From: Bacillota bacterium
Lineage (GTDB): Bacteria; Bacillota_I; Bacilli_A; RF39; UBA660
Direction: 5' to 3'
DNA: 53,066 nucleotides
Assembly: GCA_015059375.1 (NCBI GenBank)
Contig: SVAN01000001.1
Span: 84,179 to 137,244, forward strand
Position numbers and translations under genes: made by a program. Positions 1-26,621 of this stretch are shown piece after piece; position 1 is the stretch's first letter; every line of letters begins with the position of its first letter. The notes beneath the pieces were generated by a model. That model had not been told where the DNA came from. It saw nothing but the letters and a program-made list of their open reading frames with translations, and searched no databases.

Positions 1-598
1 AGAAAATGACTGGGTGAATTCTACGTTAAATGCGTATTTAAACGGAGAGTACTTAAGCTCGCTATCAACAACAGCGCAAGGAATGATAGCAACATATAAT
101 AGTGAATATTCCCTATGGCATTTAAGGGGAATTGAAAAGGAAACTTCTTATACTTTATATGCATCGGGATGGTATGAAATAGAAAGAAATACGGGTACTT
201 CGGGATACCGAGGAGGAGTGGCAGGAGCCGCAGATGCAGCAAAAGAAGCGGCAATAGGACTAATGTATCCAAGTGATTATGGATATGCAGCCTATGGAAC
301 TGCATGTAATAATGAAAGTACAGAAACCTTATTTAATTATGAAGGCTCATGTGAAGCGGTGGATTGGTTATTATACGACGGCTGGGAATGGTTAATATCT
401 CCGCTTGCTGATTATTCTGACAGTGCGTTCTCCGTGTATGGCTTCGACGGTGGATATGTCTCCGACGCCGGCTACTCCGTCGGAGACATCTATCTTTCGG
501 TGCGTCCTACTTTATATTTGTCAAGTGAAGTTGAAATAGTAGGAGGTAATGGCTCCGAAGAAACCCCATACATATTAATCAATGGTAGTGAAATTTAG
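1..598 (+). CDS. Modular surface protein, 3' part (5' end outside window); C-terminal module with putative hypervariable region
   Basis: ORF open from the window edge; nearly identical at nucleotide level to 14548-14625 over its first ~80 nt; shares MYPSDYGYAAYGTACNNESTETL, WLISP and VRPTLYL motifs with the 13601-16027 protein. Confidence 0.8.
   Translation, partial: ENDWVNSTLNAYLNGEYLSSLSTTAQGMIATYNSEYSLWHLRGIEKETSYTLYASGWYEIERNTGTSGYRGGVAGAADAAKEAAIGLMYPSDYGYAAYGTACNNESTETLFNYEGSCEAVDWLLYDGWEWLISPLADYSDSAFSVYGFDGGYVSDAGYSVGDIYLSVRPTLYLSSEVEIVGGNGSEETPYILINGSEI
404..502 (+). other. Putative DGR-like variable region VR1 (33 codons between WLISP and RPTLYL)
   Basis: 27/33 codons end in C or T and 16 end in C, unlike the flanks; aligns with VR2 and VR3, with differences mostly in codon positions 1 and 2. 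Confidence 0.6.
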
Positions 599-4168: not shown

Positions 4169-5176
4169 ATGAAAAAAATAGATTTTCGTTTAGACAATTT
4201 ACGTGTACTATCAATGTTTTTAGTAATTGTTATTCATTTAGCTAATTATTATTGTCGTGCTTATAGTGATATAAGTACTTTTTCTTATGTGGGGGCACTT
4301 AGTTTTAATGCTTTAGCGCGAATAAGCGTTCCTATTTTCTTTATGATTAGTGGTGCCCTTTTATTAAGTAAAGAATATGATGAACATAAAAATAAAGAAC
4401 GAATTAAAAGGATAATTATTACACTTACTATATTTACTATTTTTTATTTACTTTGGGATAAGTTTTATATGCATAAAGATTTTGGAAATTTAATAAGTTT
4501 ATTAACTAGTCCTAAAAGAAGTATGTTGTGGTTTTTATATGCCATCATTGCTCTTTATATAGCTCTTCCTTATACTAAAATTCTGGTTGATGGGATGAGT
4601 GAAACTTTAGAGAAAAGATTTGTCGTTCTATGGATTATTTTAAATGGGGGATTTTATTTACTTGATATCTGCATAAATATTGATTTAAAATATTTGGTTC
4701 CTTTTATAAGTGGAACTTACTATTTAGGATATTTTGTAGTAGGCTATTTAATTTATAAGTATAAAGATAAAATTGATTATAAAAAATATAACTATCTTTG
4801 GATTAGTATTTTTACTATTGCTAGTTTAATAACAATTATTTTAAGCTTTTATGCTTCTGTGAATAAAAATAGATATATTGATAGTTTTTTAGCATATCGA
4901 AGTTTACTAATAATCCTATCTTCACTTTCGGCTTTTATATTCATTTACTTTAATACTTCCGAAAAAGAATGTAAGTTTATATCAAAGATTTCGCCGTATT
5001 CTTTTGGAGTATATTTAGTCCATGGTTTTTTACTTAATCTTCTGATGGAATATTTTCCTTATCAAAGGATAAATTCATTTATTGGTGTACCGATTGGTTT
5101 AATTATTTTAGGAATTACTAGTTTATTTTTAGTTTTTATCTTAAAAAAAATTCCGGCATTAAAAAAATATATATAA
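4169..5176 (+). CDS. Acyltransferase family (acyltransferase_3) integral membrane protein
   Basis: RLDNLRVLSMFLVIVIHLANY start, about ten TM segments, FGVYLVHGFLLNLL near the C-terminus. Confidence 0.85.
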   Translation: MKKIDFRLDNLRVLSMFLVIVIHLANYYCRAYSDISTFSYVGALSFNALARISVPIFFMISGALLLSKEYDEHKNKERIKRIIITLTIFTIFYLLWDKFYMHKDFGNLISLLTSPKRSMLWFLYAIIALYIALPYTKILVDGMSETLEKRFVVLWIILNGGFYLLDICINIDLKYLVPFISGTYYLGYFVVGYLIYKYKDKIDYKKYNYLWISIFTIASLITIILSFYASVNKNRYIDSFLAYRSLLIILSSLSAFIFIYFNTSEKECKFISKISPYSFGVYLVHGFLLNLLMEYFPYQRINSFIGVPIGLIILGITSLFLVFILKKIPALKKYI

Positions 5177-5450
5177 TAAAAAAGAACTTTTGATTGTGGA
5201 TTTATTATTAGGAAATTAAATGCATAACAAAACAAATATTGTAGTAGAAACTGATTTTTATTTAAGTAAAATCGATATTTAAAAGGAATCCATAGAGTAC
5301 AAAACGTTCCCGCAACTAATTTGAATTTAAGATTATTTATACAGTTAAGAACAAGCGCTAAGCTTGAATTAAATTATTTTCATTTATATAACACATCTTT
5401 TTCTATTTTAAAAATTATAGTATAATTATTGTAAATACAAGGAGAAATTT

Positions 5451-6011: not shown

Positions 6012-7000
6012 GTTTTTTTATCGGGAATGTAGAAATTCCAGGTAAAATTATTGTAGCTCCGATGGCGGGAATTTCTAATAAAACTTTTCGCATGATTTGT
6101 AAAGAATTCGGAGCTTCTTTAGTCGTGGGAGAAATGGTTTCAGATAAGGCAATTATGTTTGGAAATGAAAAAACATTGGAGCTTTTAGAAATGGATGAAA
6201 AAGAAAGACCAATTTCTCAGCAGATATTTGGAAGTGACTTAGATAGTTTTGTTGAAGCTGCCAAAAGAGTTTATGACATAATGCATCCTGACATTATTGA
6301 TATTAATATGGGATGTCCAGTTCCGAAGGTGGCTATTAAAAATCAGGCTGGTAGTGCGCTTTTAAAAAATCCTGATAAAATATATGAAATTGTCAGTAAT
6401 GTTGTAAAAGCTATTCCTGTGCCCGTAACAGTTAAGATTCGAGCCGGTTGGGATGAAAAAAGCATTAACTGCGAAGAGGTTGCTAAAATTTGTGAAAAAG
6501 CTGGAGCTAGTGCCATAACACTGCATGCTAGAACTAGGGCCCAAGGTTATTCAGGAAAAGCGGATTGGGCTTTAATAAAGAAAGTTGTTCAAGCTGTAAA
6601 GATTCCAGTGATTGGTAATGGGGATGTAATATCTTGTTATGATGCAAAAAAAATGCTTGATGAAACTGGTTGCGCAGCTGTAATGATTGGCCGTGGCCTT
6701 TTGGGAAATCCTTGGCTTGTGAAAGAGTGTGTCGAGTATTTAGAAAATGGTAAAGCACCTTGTAAGATTAGTTTTCAAGAAAAAATAGAGATGATGAAAA
6801 GACATTTACTTGATTTAGTTGAAGAAAAAGGTGAGCAGTCAGCGGTTTTGGAGATTAGAACTCACTTTTTATATTATTTAAAAGGAATGCCTGGTAACGC
6901 AGAAATAAAAAATGTAATTTGCAAAGCCAAAACTAAGGAAGAAATTATAAATATTTTAGATAAATATTGGGAAGTAATTAAAGATGAAAATACTATGTAA
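6008..7000 (+). CDS. dusB: tRNA-dihydrouridine synthase (DusB-like)
   Basis: APMAGISNKTFR, DINMGCPVPKV, GSALLKNPDKI, ITLHARTRAQGYSGKADW, IGRGLLGNPWL. Confidence 0.92.
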   Translation: MSFFIGNVEIPGKIIVAPMAGISNKTFRMICKEFGASLVVGEMVSDKAIMFGNEKTLELLEMDEKERPISQQIFGSDLDSFVEAAKRVYDIMHPDIIDINMGCPVPKVAIKNQAGSALLKNPDKIYEIVSNVVKAIPVPVTVKIRAGWDEKSINCEEVAKICEKAGASAITLHARTRAQGYSGKADWALIKKVVQAVKIPVIGNGDVISCYDAKKMLDETGCAAVMIGRGLLGNPWLVKECVEYLENGKAPCKISFQEKIEMMKRHLLDLVEEKGEQSAVLEIRTHFLYYLKGMPGNAEIKNVICKAKTKEEIINILDKYWEVIKDENTM

Positions 7001-9362
7001 ACTTAAAGATAATACAATTATTATTTGTGAAAACAATTATAAGAAAAAGCTTTTGAGAAAACTAACTGATCAAAAACTTTTTTTAAATGTTAAATTTTAT
7101 AGTAAAAAAGAATTTTTTCAAAAATACTTTTTTTCATACGATGAAAAAACAATTTATTATCTTGTTCAAAAGTATCAAATGAAAGTTGATATTGCTTATA
7201 TGCAACTAAATAATCTATATTATATTGATGAAAACCTAAACTATAAGTCTAATAAGTTAAATAAACTAGTCAATCTAAAAAAAGAGCTTATAGAAAATAA
7301 TTTGTTAACATATGATAATAACTTTCGGACAAGTCTTTCGAAAAAACACATAATTGTCTGGGGATATGAATGTTTAGAAAATCATGAAAAAGCTGTTTTT
7401 GATGCGTTGCAAGCGGAAATCTTTGAGGAAGAAGCTCACTTTTTGCCTAAAGCGGTTTATGAATTTGCCTCCATGGAAGATGAAGTAAATTATGTCGCGA
7501 GGGAAATTTGTAAATTAATTATAAAAGGAATTGATATTAACGCGATTAAAATAGCTGGCGTAAATGAAGATTATTATTATACGCTTGACCGTATTTTTAA
7601 ATTTTATAATATTCCAATTAAAATCCCGTTTCAAAATAGCCTTTATAGTAATCCTATTAGCCAAGAATTTCTGAAAAATTTAAATGGAGATTTAAGTAGT
7701 GCCTTAGAAAAAGTTAAGAAAAAAGATGCTACAATTGTTAATAAAATTATAAATATTTGTAATAAGTATGTTTTTGCAGACGATTTAAATGTTGCTAAAA
7801 AACTTATTATTAGTGATATGAAAAAATCTCAATTAAATAATTTTAATCAAAAAAATTTTATTGAAATTACAGAGTTAAATGAGGCTTATACAAATGAATA
7901 TGTTTTTTTAATGAACTTTAATACTGGTAGTATCCCTTGTTTAAAGAAAGATGAAAGTTATATTACGGATAATATTAAGGATGAAATAAATGCTAAAAGT
8001 GTAATACAAATTAATAAAGAAATTAAAGAATATACTATATCTAAGATTAAAAGCATTCAAAATTTAGTGATTACTTATAAATTAAAATCGGAAAAAAATG
8101 AATTTTATCCATCTTTTTTAATTGGAGATTTAAACTTAGAAGTCAAAAAAATAGCGATTGATTTGGAAAACAGTTATTCTATCACATTAGATAAAATTAA
8201 TTATGCTCGAAAAATTGATAACTTTCTTAAATATGGTGAGATTGATAGTGATTATTACTTATACCAAAACACTTTAAAAGATATTGGCTATAATTCATAT
8301 AACAATAAATTTAGTGGAATTGACGGTAAAATGTTAAAGTCTTATTTAAATAATCACTTAGTTTTATCATATTCTTCGCTTAATAATTATCATAAGTGTG
8401 CATTTCGTTTTTATTTAGCCCATATTTTACGATTAGATAAATACGAAGAAAATTTCGAAGCGTTTATTGGATCACTGTTTCATGCGGTTTTAGAAAAGTG
8501 CTTTATCTATAATTTAAATGTTGCCTCTGAAGTAAATAATTATATTAAAGAGCAAAATAAAGAATTGTCTTTGAAGGAAAGATTTTTTGTAAATAAAGTT
8601 ATAAATGACATTACCTACGTAATAGATGTTTTAAAAGAGCAAAATAGTCACATTGGGTTAGATGGGGCAATGTACGAAAAAAATATTGTGATAGATAAAA
8701 GTAAAGATGATTTAAAGATTGAATTTACAGGTTATGTTGATAAAATTTTATATAAAGAGATGGGAAATTCGACTTTAGTATCAATTATTGATTATAAAAC
8801 TGGATTTATAGATATAGAACTTAAATATGTTCCTTATGGTTTATCTTTACAGTTACCAATTTACTTATATTTGGTTAAAAACTCCGGTCTTTTTATTAAT
8901 CCGAAGTTTGTCGGTTTTTATTTGCAATATATTCTTGATAAAGATATTTTGCGCTTGGCAAACAAAAGCTATGACGAACAAAAGAAAGATAATTTGAAAT
9001 TAATGGGATATTCAATAAAAGATTCTGACTATTTAGAAAAATTTGATGATACATTTGCTAATAGCCAGTTGATTAAAGCCATGAAAATCAAAAATGATGG
9101 AAATTTTTCTAGTGCTGCTAAAGTTTTGGACGAAAGGCAAATGGATAAACTTATTGAATTAACAGAACAAAATATTGATAATGCAATTGATAACATTACA
9201 AAGGGAAATTTTACAATTAATCCAAAGAAAATAGGGTATTTTAATGATGTTGGTTGTCAATATTGTAAATTTAAAGATATATGTTTCCATAAGGAAGATG
9301 ACTATGAAATATATGAAGAAGTAAATGATTTAAGCTTTTTAGGAGGTGATGAAGATGCCTAA
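6984..9362 (+). CDS. addB: AddB-like helicase/exonuclease subunit B (short)
   Basis: Directly upstream of and overlapping addA; C-terminal PD-(D/E)XK region (SYSSLNNYHKCAFRFYL, FIGSLFHAVLEKCF, IIDYKTGF) and CX2CX5C cluster CQYCKFKDIC. Confidence 0.85.
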   Translation: MKILCKLKDNTIIICENNYKKKLLRKLTDQKLFLNVKFYSKKEFFQKYFFSYDEKTIYYLVQKYQMKVDIAYMQLNNLYYIDENLNYKSNKLNKLVNLKKELIENNLLTYDNNFRTSLSKKHIIVWGYECLENHEKAVFDALQAEIFEEEAHFLPKAVYEFASMEDEVNYVAREICKLIIKGIDINAIKIAGVNEDYYYTLDRIFKFYNIPIKIPFQNSLYSNPISQEFLKNLNGDLSSALEKVKKKDATIVNKIINICNKYVFADDLNVAKKLIISDMKKSQLNNFNQKNFIEITELNEAYTNEYVFLMNFNTGSIPCLKKDESYITDNIKDEINAKSVIQINKEIKEYTISKIKSIQNLVITYKLKSEKNEFYPSFLIGDLNLEVKKIAIDLENSYSITLDKINYARKIDNFLKYGEIDSDYYLYQNTLKDIGYNSYNNKFSGIDGKMLKSYLNNHLVLSYSSLNNYHKCAFRFYLAHILRLDKYEENFEAFIGSLFHAVLEKCFIYNLNVASEVNNYIKEQNKELSLKERFFVNKVINDITYVIDVLKEQNSHIGLDGAMYEKNIVIDKSKDDLKIEFTGYVDKILYKEMGNSTLVSIIDYKTGFIDIELKYVPYGLSLQLPIYLYLVKNSGLFINPKFVGFYLQYILDKDILRLANKSYDEQKKDNLKLMGYSIKDSDYLEKFDDTFANSQLIKAMKIKNDGNFSSAAKVLDERQMDKLIELTEQNIDNAIDNITKGNFTINPKKIGYFNDVGCQYCKFKDICFHKEDDYEIYEEVNDLSFLGGDEDA

Positions 9363-12447: not shown

Positions 12448-12468
12448 ATCTGTAAAAAAAGGAGAAAT

Positions 12469-12854
12469 ATGGAAAGAAAAGATATAATTAATGCAATAAA
12501 TGAAATAAGAAAATTTAATACTGAAACTTCTAAAATTGAAGCAAAAACTGCTTTAAAGTAGTTTTTCGAAATAATAAAAATATTATATATTCATTGCAAA
12601 GTGGACAACAAAATGGACAACAAAGTGGACAACAAAATACAACAATAGAAAAGCAACAATCAAAAGTATTGAAGTTTTGTGTAGAACCCAAGTCATCTAA
12701 TGAAATAAAAGTCTTTTTAGATATAAAATCGAGACAATATATTTCTTCTAAAATCATAAATCCTCTAATTAGAAGCGGTAAGTTAGAATATGTCAATAAA
12801 AATTCTGTGAATGCAAGAAATCAAAAATATATTACAGTTAAAATAGATAAATAA
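12469..12854 (+). pseudogene. Internally deleted AlbA_2/RecG-like ATP-binding protein (N- and C-terminal ends only)
   Basis: N-terminal piece MERKDIINAINEIRKFNTETSKIEAKTALK* with RBS (12469-12561), then GQQNGQQSGQQN linker and a winged-helix tail VLKFCVEPKSSNEIKVFLDIKSRQYISSKIINPLIRSGKLEYVN; the middle is absent. Confidence 0.6.
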
Positions 12855-12876
12855 GGAATAGTTAAATAACACTCTT

Positions 12877-12907
12877 TAAAACTAGAATTTTATGTTCTAG
12901 TTTTTTG
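12877..12907 (+). terminator. Rho-independent terminator
   Basis: AACTAGAATTTTATGTTCTAGTTTTTT. Confidence 0.75.
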
Positions 12908-12999
12908 GTTCACCAATTGCAATCTAAATCCTATAATTATTCTAAGAAAATCGAAAATAAAATATGATGGTAGTGATTGTTAAAAGAATGAAAAGCAGA

Positions 13000-13468
13000 A
13001 TATATGGTAAATATTATAACACTGATGTTGTAGATAATGATGGAATGTTTCGAATAATTGAATCGATTCCGTCTAAAAATGCAGAACCTATTATTGATCC
13101 TTAGCTAACTGATGTGTGGGCCTTGGGAGGAATAGAAAGTGATTTAGAATATGCGATTTTTAAAATGATATCTATAGAGAATGGTCTGGGATGACTGCCA
13201 AAGAGTATAAGGGGCTACGTAAAGAGTCTTTAATAGATAATATGAGTGATATTGAAATCGCTCTAGCGGATATCGGAGAACTTACGGCTCGAGAATAAAA
13301 CCCATCGGGCTTGATGAAAATAGAAAAATTGCTAAAGAAGGTGGACAAGTTGCCAATAATACTTGAAAAGATATTGAAACTAGACTCTGAGAGTCGATTG
13401 TAACTAAAGATAACGCATTAGAATATAAATATAGTGATGAAATAAACTTAATTGAAAATAAGCGGTAA
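13000..13468 (+). pseudogene. Degraded BRO/DinD-family (phage antirepressor-like) gene, C-terminal half
   Basis: Interrupted frames read FRIIESIPSKNAEPIIDP*LTDVWALGGIESDLEYAI... MTAKEYKGLRKESLIDNMSDIEIALADIGELTARE..KPIGLDENRKIAKEGGQVANN..., matching the conserved tail of this family; several stops and frameshifts. Confidence 0.75.
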
Positions 13469-13498
13469 AAAAAGACGATTGTAATTGTCTTTTTTTTA
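13466..13498 (+). terminator. Putative terminator
   Basis: AAAAAAAGACGATTGTAATTGTCTTTTTTTT. Confidence 0.65.
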
Positions 13499-13600
13499 TG
13501 TATTTGTTATAATTTTAACATAGGGTAGAAGATTTTTTGTATGGGTAATAATAATTGTTTTCTCCTTGTTTATATTTAAAAGAATGCGAGGGTTATATAT

Positions 13601-16027
13601 ATGAGTAGGAAAAGGAAAATTACGTTATCTGCTATAACGCTGTTGTTAATAATTTGTACAGCTATATCAGCATCATATGCTTTTTACACTTTTACAGTTG
13701 GCACACCATTAGAACTTTCTACAACTGCCGATATTCCAGATTGTATTGCTCTTTCAATGACGGGAGCCGGTATTAATTTAAGCGGAGATAGTGCCGCACC
13801 GATAAGTGATGTTAAAGCCTTAAGTTCTACTAATTATCGATATTCGTTTACTGTTTCTAATGCATGCGGAGAAGCGTCAAATTTAAAAATTGCACTGGCT
13901 CCAGTAAATGGCTCAACAATGCCTAATCGAGCATTAAAATATGTTTTAATTGAGCAATCTGCTAGTGTTCCAACCCAGGGGTTATATTTAACTAATAATC
14001 CAGAAAAAATGTTTACTAAACAAATAATTAGCGATGCTAAAAAAGGATATGAAGTTGATATAGAAACTGGTTATGAACTTCTTAATACCTCAATTGATGC
14101 GGGAAGTACAAAATCATACTACTTGTATTTGTGGGTTGATTATTATGAAGGTGATAAGAATCAAAGCGGTGATTTAAATAATTCAACAATGAATACAATC
14201 TTTGATGCGAGATTAATTGTTTCTGATTATTCTGCTGCCGAAGGAGGAACTGTTACATTAGCTAATGCTGTACTTGCCAAAGAAAGTAGTAGCGATTACA
14301 CATCAAGTCAAGATGGCTCTATCTACCGAGTAGTAGACCAAAATGGTGTGAGATATGAAGGAAAAGATCCCGATAATTATGTATGGTATAATTGCACAGA
14401 TGATAATGATACATCAACATGTGAAAGATGGAGAATAATCGGAGTATTCAATGGAGCAGATGTAGGACTAGATTCAAGTAAAAAATATACCAAGATAGCA
14501 AGAAGTACACCACTAGAAACACTTATGGTATGGGATACTGGAGGCGAAAATGACTGGGTGAATTCTACGTTAAATGCGTATTTAAACGGAGAGTACTTAA
14601 GCTCGCTATCAACAACAGCCCAAACAATGATAGCAACATATAATAATAAATATTCTTTATGGCACTTAAGGGGACCAGATTCCACCACTTATGAATATGC
14701 AGCAGGATGGTATGAAATAGAAAAAAATACAGGTACTCCGGGATACCGAAATGGTACCGCAGGAGCCGCAGATGCGGCAAAAGAATATGCAATAGGACTA
14801 ATGTATCCAAGTGATTATGGATATGCAGCCTATGGAACTGCATGTAATAATGAAAGTACGGAAACGTTATATAATTATGGAGGCTCATGTGCAGCAGTGG
14901 ATTGGTTATTATACTCGGAAGGCAATGAATGGTTAATATCTCCGTATGCTGGCCGTTCCGACTATGCGTTCTTTGTGTATGTCGACTACGGTAGATATGT
15001 CGACTACGTCAGCGTCTACAACGAGTTTGCGGCGCGTCCTGTCTTGTATCTGGAAGCAGATGTTTTAGTAAAAGATGGAAATGGTTCAGAAGAAAATCCA
15101 TATAAACTTCATTATGAAGCTCCTCCTAAAGAATATTTATCGGATTACGTGCTTGCGTTAGAAAGTAGTGATGATTATACCTCAAAAGCTGATGGTACTA
15201 TATATCGGGTAGTAAATCAAAATGGCGTAAGATATGAAGGGAAAAATCCCGATAATTATGTATGGTATAATTGTACAGATGATAATGATACAACAACATG
15301 TGAAAGATGGAGAATCATTGGAGTATTTGATGGAGCGGATATTGGACTTGAAGCAGGAAAAAATTATACCAAGATAGCAAGAAGTACACCAATTGCGAAT
15401 ATGGCATGGGATAGCACAAGCCCGCATGAGCATGACTGGGTAAATTCTACGTTATATCAATACTTAAATGGGACATATTTAACAAGTATATTATCAGCAG
15501 GAGCAAGAGAAAAAATAGCAAAATACAATAATCAGTATTCGACATGGCATTTGCTGGGGCCGACATCCTCTGAGTTTGAAAATTACTATACGCCAGATAT
15601 GTACCAAGCGGAAAGGGATATAACAATAGGACATAAAGGATATCGAAATGGAGTAGCAGGAGCTGCAGATGTAGCAAAAGAAGCGGCAATAGGACTAATG
15701 TATCCAAGTGATTATGGATATGCAGCATATGGGAGTACATGTAACAATGAAAGTACAGAACCGCTAAACAATTACAACACATGTGCAGCAGTGGATTGGC
15801 TAATGTATTATAATCCGGATGAAGGTTATTATTACGAATGGTTAATATCTCCGGTTACTGGCACTTCCAACCTTGCGTCAGGTGTGTTTGGTGGCTACGG
15901 TGGCCATGTCGGCTTCACCTTCGTCGACGCTGAGAACTTAGCGGTCCGTCCTGTCCTGTATCTGGAAGCTAGCGTAGAAAAAAAAGAGGGGCAAGGAACA
16001 TATGATTTACCATATGAACTAGGATAG
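13601..16027 (+). CDS. Large modular secreted/surface protein with two paralogous modules, each with a putative hypervariable region
   Basis: N-terminal signal/TM (KITLSAITLLLIICTAISASYAFYTF); two copies of the module YRVV.QNGVRYEGK.PDNYVWYNCTDDND..TCERWRIIGVF ... MYPSDYGYAAYG ... EWLISP ... ARPVLYLEA / VRPVLYLEA. Confidence 0.9.
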   Translation: MSRKRKITLSAITLLLIICTAISASYAFYTFTVGTPLELSTTADIPDCIALSMTGAGINLSGDSAAPISDVKALSSTNYRYSFTVSNACGEASNLKIALAPVNGSTMPNRALKYVLIEQSASVPTQGLYLTNNPEKMFTKQIISDAKKGYEVDIETGYELLNTSIDAGSTKSYYLYLWVDYYEGDKNQSGDLNNSTMNTIFDARLIVSDYSAAEGGTVTLANAVLAKESSSDYTSSQDGSIYRVVDQNGVRYEGKDPDNYVWYNCTDDNDTSTCERWRIIGVFNGADVGLDSSKKYTKIARSTPLETLMVWDTGGENDWVNSTLNAYLNGEYLSSLSTTAQTMIATYNNKYSLWHLRGPDSTTYEYAAGWYEIEKNTGTPGYRNGTAGAADAAKEYAIGLMYPSDYGYAAYGTACNNESTETLYNYGGSCAAVDWLLYSEGNEWLISPYAGRSDYAFFVYVDYGRYVDYVSVYNEFAARPVLYLEADVLVKDGNGSEENPYKLHYEAPPKEYLSDYVLALESSDDYTSKADGTIYRVVNQNGVRYEGKNPDNYVWYNCTDDNDTTTCERWRIIGVFDGADIGLEAGKNYTKIARSTPIANMAWDSTSPHEHDWVNSTLYQYLNGTYLTSILSAGAREKIAKYNNQYSTWHLLGPTSSEFENYYTPDMYQAERDITIGHKGYRNGVAGAADVAKEAAIGLMYPSDYGYAAYGSTCNNESTEPLNNYNTCAAVDWLMYYNPDEGYYYEWLISPVTGTSNLASGVFGGYGGHVGFTFVDAENLAVRPVLYLEASVEKKEGQGTYDLPYELG
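14945..15034 (+). other. Putative DGR-like variable region VR2 (internal module)
   Basis: 30 codons between WLISP and RPVLYL; 24 end in C/T, 15 in C; aligns with VR1 and VR3. Confidence 0.6.
15854..15946 (+). other. Putative DGR-like variable region VR3 (C-terminal module)
   Basis: 31 codons between WLISP and RPVLYL; 25 end in C/T, 15 in C; close to the 3' end of the gene as in canonical DGR targets. Confidence 0.6.
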
Positions 16028-16125
16028 AACGGCCCGATAGGGCAAGCGGCGCTGGCGGCTCGTTGGTCCGCCCGACGCCGGGTATTTTGAGGATTTCAAC
16101 ATCAATATTGATGATTGAAATAAAT
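16024..16125 (+). repeat. 3' element A: GC-rich double hairpin followed by a long palindrome, behind the surface-protein gene
   Basis: GCCC-GATA-GGGC (16032-16043), GGCG..GGCGG/CCGCC..CGCC (16048-16079), ATTTCAA-CATCAATATTGATG-A-TTGAAAT (16093-16121); homologous to 21223-21301. Confidence 0.6.
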
Positions 16126-16700: not shown

Positions 16701-18059
16701 CTACTTTACTAAAGCTTTAGCAACCTCGTTAACCGGACCGGCTCCGATGGTAATAATTAAATCATTTTCTTGAACATTTTCTTTAATATATTCTTCGATT
16801 TTTTCAAACGATTCAATGTATATTGCTTTTTCGTTACCATTTTTTCTGATTAAATTAACGATATCTTGGCCACTTACATTATAAATATTTTCTTCGCGCG
16901 CAGCATAAATTTCGGCAATAATAACATGATCAAATTTTGCAAGTACTTCCCCAAATTCATTTAAGTGATCTTTGGTTCTAGAATAGGTATGGGGTTGGAA
17001 GATTGCCCAATTTTCTTTGTGTTTTGTCTTTTTAACAGATTCATAAGTTGTTTTAATTTCACTTGGATGGTGGGCATAATCATCATATACTGGGCAGTTA
17101 TTAAATGTTCCTAATAACTCAAATCGTCTTCCTACACCATGATAATTACTTAAAGCCTTAGTAATTATTTCAAGGTCTAATATATATTGATGGGATAAAG
17201 CAATTGCGGCAAGAGAATTATAAACATTATGAATTCCACTTACTCCTAAAGAAACATTAATCTTCATTTCGTTATTGATATATAAGTCATATCTTGCATG
17301 CCCATTTTCATCAAAATCAATATTTTTAGCCATATAATTTGCGCTGTTTTCAATCCCATAAGTAATTTTCTTTTTGCTATCTTTCGTCGCAATTAAAGTG
17401 TTTTCGTCATCAGCATTAATAACTAGGATACCATTATCAGGAAGTAGCTTTGTATACCGGTTAAATGATTTAATAATATTATCTAGGTTACCAAAATAAT
17501 CTAAATGATCATTATCAATATTTAAAATAATTTCCGCTGTTGGAAAAAAGTCTAAGAAACTATCAACGTATTCACAAGCTTCGGCAATAAAATATTCTTT
17601 ATCACCAACATGGTCATTACCTCCGATAAGGGGAAGGATTGCTCCGATTTGAATCGTTGGATTTAATTTAGCTTCCATAAATATTGAACTAACCATTCCG
17701 CTGGTGGTACTTTTACCATGAGTTCCACTGATGCATAAAACATTTTTGTAATTTTTCATCATTAACCCAAAGAACACACTTCTCTCATATAATTCTTTGT
17801 TCAATTTTTTAGCATAAGCCAGTTCTTCGTTATCATCTTTGATAGCGGCTGTATAAATGACTATATCAGCATTTTCTATATTTTTAAGATTAATTTCATA
17901 ACTTATTTTAATGCCTTTGGAAGCTAGTTTTTTAGTAAGTTCGCTTTCTTTTACGTCATATCCTGTAATTTCACAATTATATGAAAGAAGTATATCGGCA
18001 ATACCACTCATTGATACCCCACCAATTCCAATCATATGAATTTTTTTGTTTGTAAACAT
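16701..18059 (-). CDS. murC: UDP-N-acetylmuramate--L-alanine ligase
   Basis: IHMIGIGGVSMSGIADIL, CISGTHGKSTTSGM, NIDNDHLDYFGN, YDDYAHHPSEI, ITIGAGPVN. Confidence 0.97.
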   Translation of the reverse strand: MFTNKKIHMIGIGGVSMSGIADILLSYNCEITGYDVKESELTKKLASKGIKISYEINLKNIENADIVIYTAAIKDDNEELAYAKKLNKELYERSVFFGLMMKNYKNVLCISGTHGKSTTSGMVSSIFMEAKLNPTIQIGAILPLIGGNDHVGDKEYFIAEACEYVDSFLDFFPTAEIILNIDNDHLDYFGNLDNIIKSFNRYTKLLPDNGILVINADDENTLIATKDSKKKITYGIENSANYMAKNIDFDENGHARYDLYINNEMKINVSLGVSGIHNVYNSLAAIALSHQYILDLEIITKALSNYHGVGRRFELLGTFNNCPVYDDYAHHPSEIKTTYESVKKTKHKENWAIFQPHTYSRTKDHLNEFGEVLAKFDHVIIAEIYAAREENIYNVSGQDIVNLIRKNGNEKAIYIESFEKIEEYIKENVQENDLIITIGAGPVNEVAKALVK

Positions 18060-18396: not shown

Positions 18397-21225
18397 ATGG
18401 AAAATGATGTTATAAAGAATAAAGAAAGTTTAAAAGCTATCCTTTTTATTGGGATAACAACGATATTACTGATGGCAATAGGTGTATTTTTTGCATATGC
18501 CTATTTTGCTAATGACCCAAATATTCAAAATAATTTAGCGCTTAATGTAACGATTGAAGAGGGAATATCGGCAGAATTTACTGTAACAGGAGATGAAGAT
18601 TTAACAATTGATGTATCTGGCGATAAGATGTTAAATGATGGAATTGGCTCAGTAGCAGGAACAGATAATACCTCAATAACAGTTAATTTAACAAGTAGTT
18701 CACCGGTAATATGTACTTATGATTTAGTGTGGTCTTGGAATGACGATAGTCCTAATGAATACACAATTTCCACTGGTGCTACAAAAGAATTTACTATTCA
18801 AGGAACTGATGGAAGCAATACTATTGATGAAGTACAAGTAAGTAATTATGGGGCTAGTTTAGATTTAGGTTCTTATGAAATATTTACTTTGGGTGGAACA
18901 ATTATCCAAGATTGGAGCTTTATTGCTAATTTTTATAATGTTAATGTAGTTCAAGATAACCATGCCGGAGCTATTTATAGTGGTAAAATTGCAATACATA
19001 ATGCAGAGTGTGGTGGCCTAGATACAACACTTTCTGATGCTATTGTCACTTTATCTGCTTTAGGAGATCAAAGGTCTCAAAAAGATGGTAGTGTATATAA
19101 AGTAGAACATGAGATATTTACAGCTGCTGATGGTATAACACAAATCGATGCTGGTTATCGTTATGAAGGCGCTAACCCAGATAATTATGTGGAATATAAT
19201 GATGAATTATGGCGAATTATCGGAACTTTTGATGGTTCTGATGTTGGCCTTGAGGAAGGTAAACAATATACAAAGATAATCAGAAGCAATCCATTTAGCA
19301 CTGCATATCCATGGGATTGGGATGATATAAATGGTAATGGTTTGATTGACAGGGATGAATGGAGCGAGTTATGGGCTGATGCTTCATTAAATGCTTTATT
19401 AAATAATGATTATTTAAATCAAGCTGGTGAATTTTCTAGTACGTCTACGGATAAAGGTTTAAATGAAACTGCACGAAATATGATTGCTAAATTTAATAAT
19501 CAATATTCAAAGTGGTATACAAAAGGTTATCTGACAGGTAATACTCAAACTGCTAACGATTTTTATTCTGACGAAAGACAGAAAGGGTACTTATATACTG
19601 CAATAGGTTCAATGTATCCAAGCGATTATGGATATGCAATTTATGATGGTGGTAATGATGATTCATGTGTTTTTCCATCACGTGCTAATATGTCTTCATG
19701 TAAACAATATAATTGGTTATATCGTTCAGGTGTTAATCAATTGTTAATATCGTATGGTAAAATGGGAAGCCTACTAATTCCTTCGATGATTTCTTCTGAG
19801 GGTCAAGTAACAATGTATGATATTTCTACTTCTACTGCGTATTTTAGACCTGCATTATATTTAGAAGCGGATGTATTAATAATAAGTGGAAAAGGTTCAG
19901 AGGATGATCCATATAAAATTTATAAAAAAACCAAAGATAGCTCTTCTGATACCTTATCTGATACAATCTTAGCCTTAGCCAGTGGTATTGAGAGACAATC
20001 TGCTCAAACAAATGGCGGAGTATACCGAGTGGTTAGTCCTGAAGTAACCACCCCGAATTTTACAATATATAAAAATCTCACTCAGGATGAATATGGAAGT
20101 GTAGTAGAATATAAAGCTTCAGAAAGTGGTGCTTTACTTAGCGCTGGTACTTTAACATCAAACATATATACTTGGGATAGTAGCGAAGGTTTTTGGGAAA
20201 AAAGTTATGTTCGTGGAAATGATGGCGATTATTATAATCTTGTAATTCCAATTAAAGAAAGTGGTAATTATAGGTATTGCTTTTCAACTCACTATGGTAG
20301 TAGTAGTAATAAGTTAAAAGTATATATAACTGATGAAAATTCTAGTATTTATGCCAATTCCAAAAGTACCATTTCATTAACAAGTGTTGTTGGTAATGAT
20401 TGTCGTGGGTTAGGGGATATAACTGAGGGTCAGGGCGTGAGATTTGAATATATGAAGGGGGGAGCCTCAGGTACTGGCGTATCTATTACTTTACAAAAGA
20501 TGGAAGAAACCGTACCATTTGGAAATCCTGGTGTAAAATATCAAGGAAAAGATCCAAATAATTATGTGTTATTTAATAACGGAGAATTGTGGCGAATCAT
20601 TGGAACTTTTGAAGGAAGTACAATTGGTCTTGAGCAAGGTGAACATTATACTAAAATAATCAAGAGTGCTTCAATAGGAAATTACGAATGGGATAGTAGT
20701 ATTAGTACTACATGGCAAGATTCTGATTTAAATTATTACTTAACAAATAACTTGTATAATAATTTAAACGTTAATACTAAAGATATGATAGAATATGCAA
20801 CATGGCATTTAGGTAAAATTCAGAATGGAGATTATAATGCATCCGGGTACTATATCGAAGAAAGAGGAGCATCTGGTGGTATAATACCTCATCAAAACTA
20901 TATTGGTTTAATGAATCCAAGTGATTATGGATATGCAATGTATGCAGGAAATACAAATCATGATTGTACTATCGAAACATTAATTAGTAATTATAGCGCA
21001 TCTAAATATGGTTGTGTAAATTATGATTGGTTGTTTAACGGGGATGAATGGACAATATCTCCAATAAATCTTCGATCATCATTTATCGTAAGTGCGGATG
21101 GCGTAATAGGGATTGGAGGGAATGATACTGATGAATATGCTGTTCGTCCTGTTTTGTATCTTAAGTCTAATGTCAGTATTGAGGCAGGAGAAGGCACTTT
21201 ATCTTCACCATATATATTGAAATAG
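18397..21225 (+). CDS. Large modular surface protein, paralog of 13601-16027
   Basis: N-terminal TM (AILFIGITTILLMAIGVFFAYAYF); two modules with LWRIIGTF, MYPSDYGYA / MNPSDYGYAMY, RPALYLEADV / VRPVLYLKSNV. Confidence 0.88.
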   Translation: MENDVIKNKESLKAILFIGITTILLMAIGVFFAYAYFANDPNIQNNLALNVTIEEGISAEFTVTGDEDLTIDVSGDKMLNDGIGSVAGTDNTSITVNLTSSSPVICTYDLVWSWNDDSPNEYTISTGATKEFTIQGTDGSNTIDEVQVSNYGASLDLGSYEIFTLGGTIIQDWSFIANFYNVNVVQDNHAGAIYSGKIAIHNAECGGLDTTLSDAIVTLSALGDQRSQKDGSVYKVEHEIFTAADGITQIDAGYRYEGANPDNYVEYNDELWRIIGTFDGSDVGLEEGKQYTKIIRSNPFSTAYPWDWDDINGNGLIDRDEWSELWADASLNALLNNDYLNQAGEFSSTSTDKGLNETARNMIAKFNNQYSKWYTKGYLTGNTQTANDFYSDERQKGYLYTAIGSMYPSDYGYAIYDGGNDDSCVFPSRANMSSCKQYNWLYRSGVNQLLISYGKMGSLLIPSMISSEGQVTMYDISTSTAYFRPALYLEADVLIISGKGSEDDPYKIYKKTKDSSSDTLSDTILALASGIERQSAQTNGGVYRVVSPEVTTPNFTIYKNLTQDEYGSVVEYKASESGALLSAGTLTSNIYTWDSSEGFWEKSYVRGNDGDYYNLVIPIKESGNYRYCFSTHYGSSSNKLKVYITDENSSIYANSKSTISLTSVVGNDCRGLGDITEGQGVRFEYMKGGASGTGVSITLQKMEETVPFGNPGVKYQGKDPNNYVLFNNGELWRIIGTFEGSTIGLEQGEHYTKIIKSASIGNYEWDSSISTTWQDSDLNYYLTNNLYNNLNVNTKDMIEYATWHLGKIQNGDYNASGYYIEERGASGGIIPHQNYIGLMNPSDYGYAMYAGNTNHDCTIETLISNYSASKYGCVNYDWLFNGDEWTISPINLRSSFIVSADGVIGIGGNDTDEYAVRPVLYLKSNVSIEAGEGTLSSPYILK

Positions 21226-23525: not shown

Positions 23526-26500
23526 ATGAAAAATTTTAAGGAATTAGACAAAAGACCAGTTAGCGAAGTTGAAGCAAGTATTTCTACTTCTTGGGAAAGT
23601 ATTAATGCTATGCATGATGCTCAAAATAAGAAAAATGAAAATAACGAAACTTTTGTTTTTTATGATGGGCCAGCATTTGCCAATGGCTTTCCAGGGCTTC
23701 ATCATATGGTATCTAAAAATTTAAAAGATACAGTTACTAAATATCATGTAATGAATGGTAAAAAAGTAATTAGAAAAATTGGTTGGGATACACATGGACT
23801 TCCGATTGAAAATCATGTTGAAAAGAAACTGGGTATTTCATCAAAGAAGGAAATTGAAGCTTTAGGAATTGAAAAATTTAATGAAGAATGTCGGAAAAGT
23901 GTTAGAGCTAATGAAGATGCATTTACAAACTTAACTTCAAAAATGGGACAATTTTTTGATGTTGAAAATCCATATTTAACTTATAAAAATGATTATATTG
24001 AAACTGAATGGTGGATTTTAAAAGAAATGTTTAAAAAAGATATGTTCTATGAAGGAACAAGGGTAGTTCCTTATTGTCCTCATTGTGGAACTGGTCTTGC
24101 TACTCATGAAGTTGCGCAAAATTACCAAACTGATACGGCAATAACTGTTTATGTTCCATTTAAAAAGAAGGATGAAGATGTTTACTTTTTAGTTTGGACT
24201 ACAACACCATGGACATTAATTGCTAACGTTGCTTTATGTGTTAATCCTAATGAAGAATATGCTTTAGTAGAATCTAAAGGTACTAAGTTTATTTTAGCCA
24301 AAAGTTTAGTAGAAAAGGTTTTAGGAGAAGAAGCAAATATTCTTGAATCTTTCAAAGGTAAAGATTTAGAATATACTGAGTATGAACAATTAATTCCATC
24401 TTTCGAAGTAGATAAGAAAGCTTTCTTTGTAACTTGTGATAATTATGTAACGATGGAAGATGGTACAGGTATTGTTCATATTGCTCCAGCATTTGGTGAA
24501 GATGATGCTCAAGTAGGTAAAAAATATGATTTACCATATTTAAATCCAGTTGGAAAAGATGGTTGTTATACAGGAGGAATGTGGGAAGGTAAGTTTGTTC
24601 ATGATGCAAATGAAGAGGTTGTAACTTACTTAAAAGAAAATGATAAGTTATTTAAAAAACAAAAACTTGCTCATGAATATCCTCATTGCTGGCGTTGTGA
24701 TACTGCATTAATTTATTATTCAATGCCAAGTTATTATATAAAGGTAAGTGAAATGACTGATGACTTAGTTAAAGCTAATGCAAATGTTAATTGGTATCCA
24801 GCTTATGTTGGTGAAAAAAGATTTGCTAATTGGCTAGCTAATGCACGTGATTGGAATGTATCTCGTTCTCGTTATTGGGGAAGTCCAATTCCATATTGGA
24901 AATGTGAATGCGGTCATGCACATATGGTTGGTTCTGTTGAGGAACTTAAAAAAATGGCTACTTGTGAAATTGGTGAGGATTTTGATTTACATAAACCATA
25001 TATTGATAACGTTCATTTAACTTGTGAAAAATGTGGTAAAGAAATGACTCGGATTCCTGATGTTTTAGATTGTTGGTTCGACTCTGGGGCAATGCCTTTT
25101 GCTCAATATCATTATCCATTTGAAAATCAAGAACTTTGGGAAAATCAATTTCCAGCCGACTTCATTTGCGAAGGAATTGACCAAACACGTGGTTGGTTTT
25201 ATACATTAATGGTAATATCAACCTTTGTTAAAGGTTGTTCACCATTTAAAAATGTTTTAGTAAATGACTTATTACTTGATGCAAATGGCAAGAAGATGAG
25301 TAAAAGTCGTGGTAATATCGTGGAACCATTTAGTACAATTGAAAAGTATGGTGCTGATACGGTAAGATTCTATTTACCTTATGTGTCTGCAGTATGGACT
25401 CCACTTAAATTTGATATGGAAGGTTTAAAAGAAGTTTATTCTAAATTCTTTAATCCTCTTAAAAATACTTATAGCTTCTTTGCGATGTATGCTAATATCG
25501 ATGAAATTGATACAAATGACTGTTATGTAGAATATGAAAATCGTGAAGAAATTGATAAATGGTTACTTTCAAAATATCATCGTTTAGTTAAAGATGTTCG
25601 TGCTGCTTTTGATGAATATGATTTAAATAAAGTAGTTCATTATTTATCAAATTTTGTATCCGAAGATTTATCTAACTGGTATATTCGCAGAAATCGTAAT
25701 CGTTTCTGGGGTAGTACTTTAGATAATTCAAAGAAGAGTGTTTATATTACAACATATGAAGTATTAGTAGGCTTATCTAAATTAATTGCGCCGATTGTAC
25801 CTTTTGTATCCGAGGAATTGTATCGTAATTTAACTGGCGAAGCATCAGTTCATTTAGCGGATTATCCTGCTTTTGATGAAAGTATAATTGATGAAAGTTT
25901 AGAAAAGAAAATGGATTTAGTTCGAAGTATTATTTCTATTGGCCGCTATGTTCGGGAAGAAAATAAAATAAAGGTTCGTCAACCACTTTCTGAAGGTTTG
26001 ATTGATGGTAAAAATAAGGAAGTACTTAGCGATGTAGTTAATCTTATTATGGAAGAGTTAAATGTTAAAAAAGTAACCTTTGCTGAGGATTTAAATACAT
26101 ATATGAACTTTACAATTAAACCTAATTTCAAAGAAGTTGGTAAAGTATTTGGTAAAAATATGGGAGAATACCAAAAGAAACTTGCAGAACTTGATTCAAG
26201 TGATATTAATACATTACAAAACGGTGAAAATATTAAAATGATTATTGCTGGTGAAGAATATGATATTAGTCCATCCATGGTTGAAATCCGTTATGATGCT
26301 AAAGAAGGCTTTAATGTAGGAATGGAAAATGGTAATTTCATTATTCTTGATACGAGAATTACTGATGAACTTAAAATGGAAGGTAATGCTCGAGAATTTG
26401 TTTCGAAAGTTCAAGCGTTACGTAAAGATAATAACTTTGATATTGCTGATCGAATCATTACTACTTATAATGCTGATGATGAATTTGCTAAAGCAATCGA

Positions 26501-26621
26501 AGCAAATACTGACTATGTTAAAAATGAAACACTTTCTATTGAGCTCGTAAAAGATGAAATGATAGAAAAAGATTTAACATTAAATGATTATGCAGTTGGT
26601 ATTAAATTAGAAAGAAAATAA
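23526..26621 (+). CDS. ileS: Isoleucyl-tRNA synthetase
   Basis: DGPAFANGFPGLHH, WDTHGLPIE, TTPWTL, DQTRGWFYTLMV, KMSKSRGN; T-box leader. Confidence 0.97.
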   Translation: MKNFKELDKRPVSEVEASISTSWESINAMHDAQNKKNENNETFVFYDGPAFANGFPGLHHMVSKNLKDTVTKYHVMNGKKVIRKIGWDTHGLPIENHVEKKLGISSKKEIEALGIEKFNEECRKSVRANEDAFTNLTSKMGQFFDVENPYLTYKNDYIETEWWILKEMFKKDMFYEGTRVVPYCPHCGTGLATHEVAQNYQTDTAITVYVPFKKKDEDVYFLVWTTTPWTLIANVALCVNPNEEYALVESKGTKFILAKSLVEKVLGEEANILESFKGKDLEYTEYEQLIPSFEVDKKAFFVTCDNYVTMEDGTGIVHIAPAFGEDDAQVGKKYDLPYLNPVGKDGCYTGGMWEGKFVHDANEEVVTYLKENDKLFKKQKLAHEYPHCWRCDTALIYYSMPSYYIKVSEMTDDLVKANANVNWYPAYVGEKRFANWLANARDWNVSRSRYWGSPIPYWKCECGHAHMVGSVEELKKMATCEIGEDFDLHKPYIDNVHLTCEKCGKEMTRIPDVLDCWFDSGAMPFAQYHYPFENQELWENQFPADFICEGIDQTRGWFYTLMVISTFVKGCSPFKNVLVNDLLLDANGKKMSKSRGNIVEPFSTIEKYGADTVRFYLPYVSAVWTPLKFDMEGLKEVYSKFFNPLKNTYSFFAMYANIDEIDTNDCYVEYENREEIDKWLLSKYHRLVKDVRAAFDEYDLNKVVHYLSNFVSEDLSNWYIRRNRNRFWGSTLDNSKKSVYITTYEVLVGLSKLIAPIVPFVSEELYRNLTGEASVHLADYPAFDESIIDESLEKKMDLVRSIISIGRYVREENKIKVRQPLSEGLIDGKNKEVLSDVVNLIMEELNVKKVTFAEDLNTYMNFTIKPNFKEVGKVFGKNMGEYQKKLAELDSSDINTLQNGENIKMIIAGEEYDISPSMVEIRYDAKEGFNVGMENGNFIILDTRITDELKMEGNAREFVSKVQALRKDNNFDIADRIITTYNADDEFAKAIEANTDYVKNETLSIELVKDEMIEKDLTLNDYAVGIKLERK

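Follow-up and report, generated by a model that had tools for sequence, protein, structure and literature searches.

Introduction

Surveys place the variable regions (VRs) of DGR targets almost exclusively near gene 3' ends (PMC7517822), and in phages these VRs are followed by GC-rich hairpins with GRNA loops and stems of 7-10 bp, on which efficient homing depends (Guo et al. 2011, PMC3240598). The DGR of Bordetella phage BPP-1, characterized by adenine-specific mutagenic homing, has a single VR at the gene end with such a hairpin (8-bp stem) on its 3' side (PMC3240598). The cyanobacterial remote variable proteins are dispersed C-type-lectin paralogues diversified in trans, with VRs exclusively near gene 3' ends (PMC7517822), whereas Thiohalocapsa PB-PSB1 has 15 targets with 21 VRs served by nine DGR loci, some of them in trans and several VRs occurring in one protein; these targets are putative antigen sensors of conflict systems, and in one target gene with three VRs the first two are diversified too, less often (PMC10907252). 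A further target domain, DUF6273, with a fold resembling C-type lectins, is used by DGRs of Faecalibacterium prophages, in which the VR lies in the C-terminal part of the domain (PMC11792537), and by those of gut phages, viz., the tentaclins (PMC10743442); these are phage proteins, with 1-2 targets per DGR. Among the accessory proteins known from DGRs are MutS-like (MSL) and HRDC proteins (PMC10053308).

Here we describe a family of VR-bearing DUF6273 modules from a small, gut-type member of the Bacillota, which, like the cyanobacterial and Thiohalocapsa sets, is dispersed and very probably diversified in trans, and, like the latter, has several VRs in one protein. In contrast to the phage systems, the modules occur in tandem in chromosomal genes, and in contrast to Thiohalocapsa PB-PSB1 they are repeats of DUF6273 in secreted-type proteins, with apparently one main template. 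What is new is a VR set that is large, multi-module, and in part internal, with a cassette missing from the assembly, and the internal VRs with no downstream hairpin are an unusual feature.

Results and discussion

Two hypervariable tracts in a two-module DUF6273 protein

The window, i.e., the whole stretch of DNA that was analyzed (53,066 nt), comes from contig C10 of a draft assembly (1.01 Mb in 29 contigs, 72% complete), which was examined through searches and selected stretches. The features of the window that are needed here are as follows, the modules having been delimited by a genome-wide paralogue search and alignment, and P0001 by its ORF, Pfam matches, and hydrophobicity.

13601..16027, + strand: P0001, an 808-aa two-module DUF6273 protein with an N-terminal hydrophobic segment at residues ~5-33
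14270..15109, + strand: module 1 of P0001 (internal)
14945..15034, + strand: VR1, internal, 30 codons; the homology block extends through CGTCCT at 15035-15040
15149..16021, + strand: module 2 of P0001 (C-terminal)
15854..15946, + strand: VR2, C-terminal, 31 codons, one more than VR1; the homology block extends through CGTCCT at 15947-15952
404..502, + strand: third VR of the window, in the final module of a gene with three modules and 1087 residues, whose start lies upstream of the window (ORF 14-598 in the window)
18397..21225, + strand: paralogous two-module gene (modules 19147-19920 and 20527-21216), with a VR-equivalent tract lacking the signature
16701-18059: murC, chromosomal neighbor of P0001, named from its translation
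23526-26621: ileS, likewise

P0001 matches Pfam PF19789 (DUF6273) in two stretches (E 3.1e-10), and its N-terminal hydrophobic segment suggests, at the sequence level, a surface location. Codons ending in C make up 50% of VR1 and 48% of VR2 as against 9% of the remaining 748 codons of the protein, and those ending in Y (C or T) 80-81% as against 46%; in the second module of the paralogous gene at 18397..21225 the VR-equivalent tract has 7% C-ending codons. The first-pass annotation had proposed two hypervariable tracts of this codon pattern in P0001, one internal and one C-terminal, along with a third copy elsewhere: both tracts are present at the coordinates listed above, their unusual layout within one polypeptide is real, and so is the third copy, in the gene truncated at the left edge of the window.

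An alignment query of a genome collection retrieved 210 relatives of P0001, the closest 42% identical; the named ones are mostly uncultured Bacilli, many of them from gut or rumen samples. A scan of genome contigs with a single module gave no match, and the target proteins had no NCBIfam match above cut-off. The stretch between P0001 and the 1033-aa gene on its 5' side (window 12448-13600) has no ORF of at least 90 aa and resembles a decayed gene.

A dispersed family of modules with a lectin-like fold

A search of the genome with the VR1 DNA found the VR at 14 places, so that it recurs at least that often, while a search with the module 1 protein recovered 19 close modules (60-100% identical) in addition to more divergent ones. 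These 19 are spread over at least eight genes, each containing between one and three of them, and 16 carry the Y-ending hypervariable tract; the other three (C10p_1, C1_2, and C11_1) have AT-rich ordinary codons at the equivalent position, with no signature, as does the VR-equivalent tract of the gene at 18397..21225, and further modules are intermediate between the two types. The earlier reading of two VRs in one protein was thus right about the layout but too small in scope, the set being one of eight genes, 19 modules, and 16 VRs. At about 840 nt each, the 19 modules occupy roughly 1.6% of the assembled chromosome, and most of them carry randomized patches; 16 VRs in a 1-Mb genome is an unusual scale. 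The VRs range from 29 to 35 codons and differ by whole codons, a spread that a single template would not yield directly and that calls for additional templates or for small indels at a later stage. Two remnants were seen beside the intact members. The gene on contig C12 (L114) has a stop after its second module, followed by the remnant of another module, and a VR-region remnant lies near small genes with prepilin-like N-termini on contig C6 (G000:C6:43339-43511). The latter was considered as a possible template and rejected, being a decayed VR with stops and not AAY-rich.

DUF6273 is detected in 22 of the 24 aligned modules. When module 1 was modeled with AlphaFold2 (pLDDT 72, pTM 0.79), the best structure match was the T. 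ramosa IgA peptidase (9qa6, E 1.6e-4); the viral matches are DUF6273 proteins, and the Legionella Lcl C-terminal domain and C-type lectins are weaker, non-significant matches. By the DUF6273 assignment, the VRs lie in a C-type-lectin-like domain.

Complete DGR cassettes in related genomes

Congeners of this bacterium hold complete DGR cassettes, comprised of a target, a template (TR), a MutS-like protein, Avd, and an RT with an IGNxTSQ motif. In G033, G020, G009, and G005 a match to the template reconstructed from the present VRs (see below) and an RT gene are about 1 kb apart, and the loci of the relatives contain a target, a TR, small ORFs, and the RT. The RTs that were read have IGNxTSQ and YMDD motifs; the matches of the upstream ORFs to bAvd and NF033474 (DGR Avd) stay below the curated cut-offs and that to MutS domain I (MutS_I) exceeds its cut-off, and the accessory ORFs are homologous between genomes. 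Mismatches between TR and VR fall at A rather than non-A positions of the template in G009 (16/0), G002 (20/0), G005 (10/0), G306 (18/0), G107 (17/0), and G020 (17/0), and mainly at A in G033 (12/4). The protein with MutS domain I occurs regularly in the sister operons, between the TR and Avd (L064:2676-3167, with homologues in L062, L063, L065, and L067).

The DGRs of the congeners (G002, G005, and G009) and of other members of the family (G020 and G033) share with the present set the placement of the VR between a Ser-Pro-like motif and the Arg-Pro of the target; a homologous post-stop element is found in G002, and the templates of G002, G009, and G033 have AAY at the same codons. They differ in that the cassettes examined have one VR beside the TR, Avd, and RT, whereas in the present genome 16 VRs are dispersed over eight multi-module genes and the assembly lacks a cassette.

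The adenine fingerprint of the VRs

Among the 14 modules that align without gaps, the first 12 VR codons show differences of 0.39/0.43/0.15 at codon positions 1/2/3, and the adjacent conserved stretch 0.05/0.06/0.14. None of the 23 conserved columns inside the VR holds an A, as opposed to 12 of the 43 flanking ones (p=0.005). A further comparison is with the real TRs of relatives (G002 and G009, two congeners, and G033, a member of the same family), which are independent of the VRs at hand. Hypervariable sites of the present VRs fall on 11 of the 13 A positions of the G002/G033 template bases and on 1 of 23 elsewhere (p=1.4e-6), and on 11 of 14 and 1 of 22, respectively, for G009 (p=6.5e-6). 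Codons 1, 4, 6, 7, 10, and 12 are AAY in all three templates, and these include the five codons that vary most in the present VRs (1, 4, 7, 10, and 12). The DGR-type adenine fingerprint reported in the first-pass annotation is thus confirmed by real TRs, with whose adenines the hypervariable positions coincide, and its DGR interpretation is supported by the DGR-type RT, Avd, and MutS-like genes of the sister cassettes.

A template reconstructed from the present VRs, which has 36 A sites and 60 other sites and suggests that the genome's own template would be close to AATGCTGACAATTCCAACAATGCGTTCAATGTGAATGACAACAACGGTGGAAATGTCAACAACAACAACGTCAACAACGAGAATGCGGCGCGTCCT, was used as a description of the individual VRs; being derived from these same VRs, its fits are partly circular, unlike the comparison with the relatives' templates. 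Against it, VR1 of the window (C10w_1) is changed at 21 of the 36 A sites and 1 of the 60 others, C25_3 at 24 and 0, C25_1 at 23 and 1, and C11_3 at 21 and 2, and VR2 of the window, C25_2, C18_1, and C6_1 are among the VRs that deviate at non-A sites. The longest runs shared between VRs are within chance (column shuffles, P 0.24-0.68), so each VR was randomized independently.

We propose that VR1 and VR2 are very probably targets of a DGR that acts in trans on the dispersed family of DUF6273 modules, the cassette of which is most likely unassembled. An error-prone RT, together with Avd, would copy a template RNA with many AAY codons, adenines would be misread during copying, and the mutated cDNA would replace the homologous VRs in the dispersed, C-type-lectin-like modules. 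Each VR would form the variable end of its domain, and about 16 binding patches may be displayed in a combination specific to each cell.

The post-stop element and the status of the internal VRs

Four C-terminal VR genes on contigs C10 (P0001), C1, C18, and C25, which lie at different loci, share an element that begins right after the stop codon, recognized by identity between the loci, folding, and alignment:

16025..16100, + strand: post-stop element common to the four genes
16032-16043, + strand: short hairpin GCCC-GATA-GGGC with a 4-bp stem and a GATA loop; imperfect in the C1 copy
within 16047-16080, + strand: larger hairpin GGCGG...CCGCC, from folding
from 16080, + strand: leader-like GGGTATTTTGAG, GGGG-AATTTT-like

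The stretch holding this element at the other loci is 92-93% identical to the window copy, and the C25 copy aligns over its full length (70 nt) with the spacer between target stop and TR in G002, with a score of 46 where the best of 2000 shuffles reached 31 (0/2000). The GATA loop agrees with the GRNA loops of the phage hairpins, but the stem of 4 bp is shorter than theirs. A search of Rfam with the element gave nothing beyond one chance-level match, and IMG/VR had no exact match to the VR 3' end or to the hairpin. No copy of the element follows the internal VRs, nor the C-terminal VRs of C10p, C11, C12, and C6.

The four C-terminal VRs followed by the hairpin would hence be the direct targets of the DGR, while the internal ones, which carry the adenine signature as well, could either be mutated in place or have been randomized while C-terminal and then moved inside through module duplication. 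Mutation in place, by one trans-acting DGR working on whole tandem arrays of lectin modules, hairpin-free internal VRs included, is a reading that we hold tentatively, at somewhat less than an even chance; it would give at least 16 independently randomized sites on multi-headed proteins. Internalization through tandem duplication, with only the hairpin-bearing C-terminal VRs active, is likewise possible, if rather doubtful: the modules have clearly multiplied through duplication, the element follows just four C-terminal VRs, and the requirement of phage DGRs for a downstream hairpin and the confinement of the cyanobacterial remote targets to 3' ends both agree with it. However, the internal VR1 and C25_1 have a single non-A change each against the reconstructed template, close to the best terminal VR, which has none, and a better fit than that of VR2 at the C-terminus of P0001; the VRs are all independent of one another; and the three-VR gene of Thiohalocapsa PB-PSB1 offers a precedent for diversification at non-terminal VRs. 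Since VRs with and without the hairpin occur side by side in one protein and are similar to each other, the genome is a natural test of the cis signals needed for mutagenic homing. If the internal VRs are mutated in place, DGR diversification would not be confined to gene 3' ends, and a lineage of gut Bacilli with small genomes would possess a combinatorial set of binding sites.

The location of the cassette and the alternatives to an active DGR

The first-pass annotation had called for a search for an RT and an A-rich template. Both are found in the congeners, but in the 1.01-Mb, 72%-complete assembly itself there is neither an RT (Pfam PF00078 and a DGR-RT profile) nor a match to bAvd, and a search of it with the reconstructed template recovered the VRs along with matches that were weak or short, none of them an AAY-rich template. 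At 72% completeness, the absence of an RT and a template from the assembly is not a refutation. The cassettes of G009 and G005 lie between the same two flanking genes, and neither of these genes was found in the present assembly by searches that had no positive control inside the genome; as the flanks are absent as well, the unassembled part probably includes the syntenic site. We therefore consider the unassembled 28% of the genome the most likely location of the DGR cassette.

An RT is present in four of the nine congeners and lacking in the other five, which makes a true absence of the cassette possible. The VRs would then be relics of past DGR randomization, inherited and decaying after the loss of the cassette. 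We regard this as unlikely. It accords with the want of RT, Avd, and TR in the assembly, with the three AT-rich modules and the intermediate ones, and with the VR remnant with stops on contig C6, but several VRs have just 0-2 non-A changes at the 60 non-A sites of the reconstructed template, the post-stop element is highly conserved between loci, and the simultaneous absence of both cassette flanks is as expected for an assembly gap rather than for an empty site. A DGR that is still active in trans is thus the reading that we favor.

The presence of many paralogous copies in the same genome could also suggest an RT-free shuffling of VR cassettes through gene conversion, as in pilE or vlsE. We consider this highly improbable and have rejected it, as mosaic tracts are no longer than in the column shuffles; furthermore, the differences lie at the positions of the relatives' template adenines, and the conserved VR columns are devoid of A. 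Ordinary positive selection on a binding loop, to which the predominance of amino-acid-changing differences in the VR might point, can be practically dismissed, as it leaves unexplained the 80% of Y-ending codons in an AT-rich gene, the A-free conserved columns, and the match to the relatives' template adenines.

Other DGR arrangements in related genomes

Some further loci were noted. G005 has, besides the cassette on its contig C9, a second, distinct DGR on C42 (L066), whose RT is more divergent and whose TR and VR, 150 nt long, mismatch at 13 A and 0 non-A positions. In L227 (G273:C21:3000-16000), a gene of 1090 residues that belongs to the module family described here is followed downstream by four tandem AAC-rich template-like repeats (reverse-strand coordinates ~6740-7700), spaced by about 270-285 nt and each with an identical non-coding tail; the VR of the gene is closest to the second repeat copy, and no DGR RT was seen within the 13 kb covered. 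This is possibly a multi-template DGR array. In a Bacilli MAG (L149, CALVIU010000032.1) a single template (5259) serves two targets flanking the RT (4177-5247), with VRs at 1395 and 6741 and mismatches of 11 A/1 non-A and 14 A/0 non-A.
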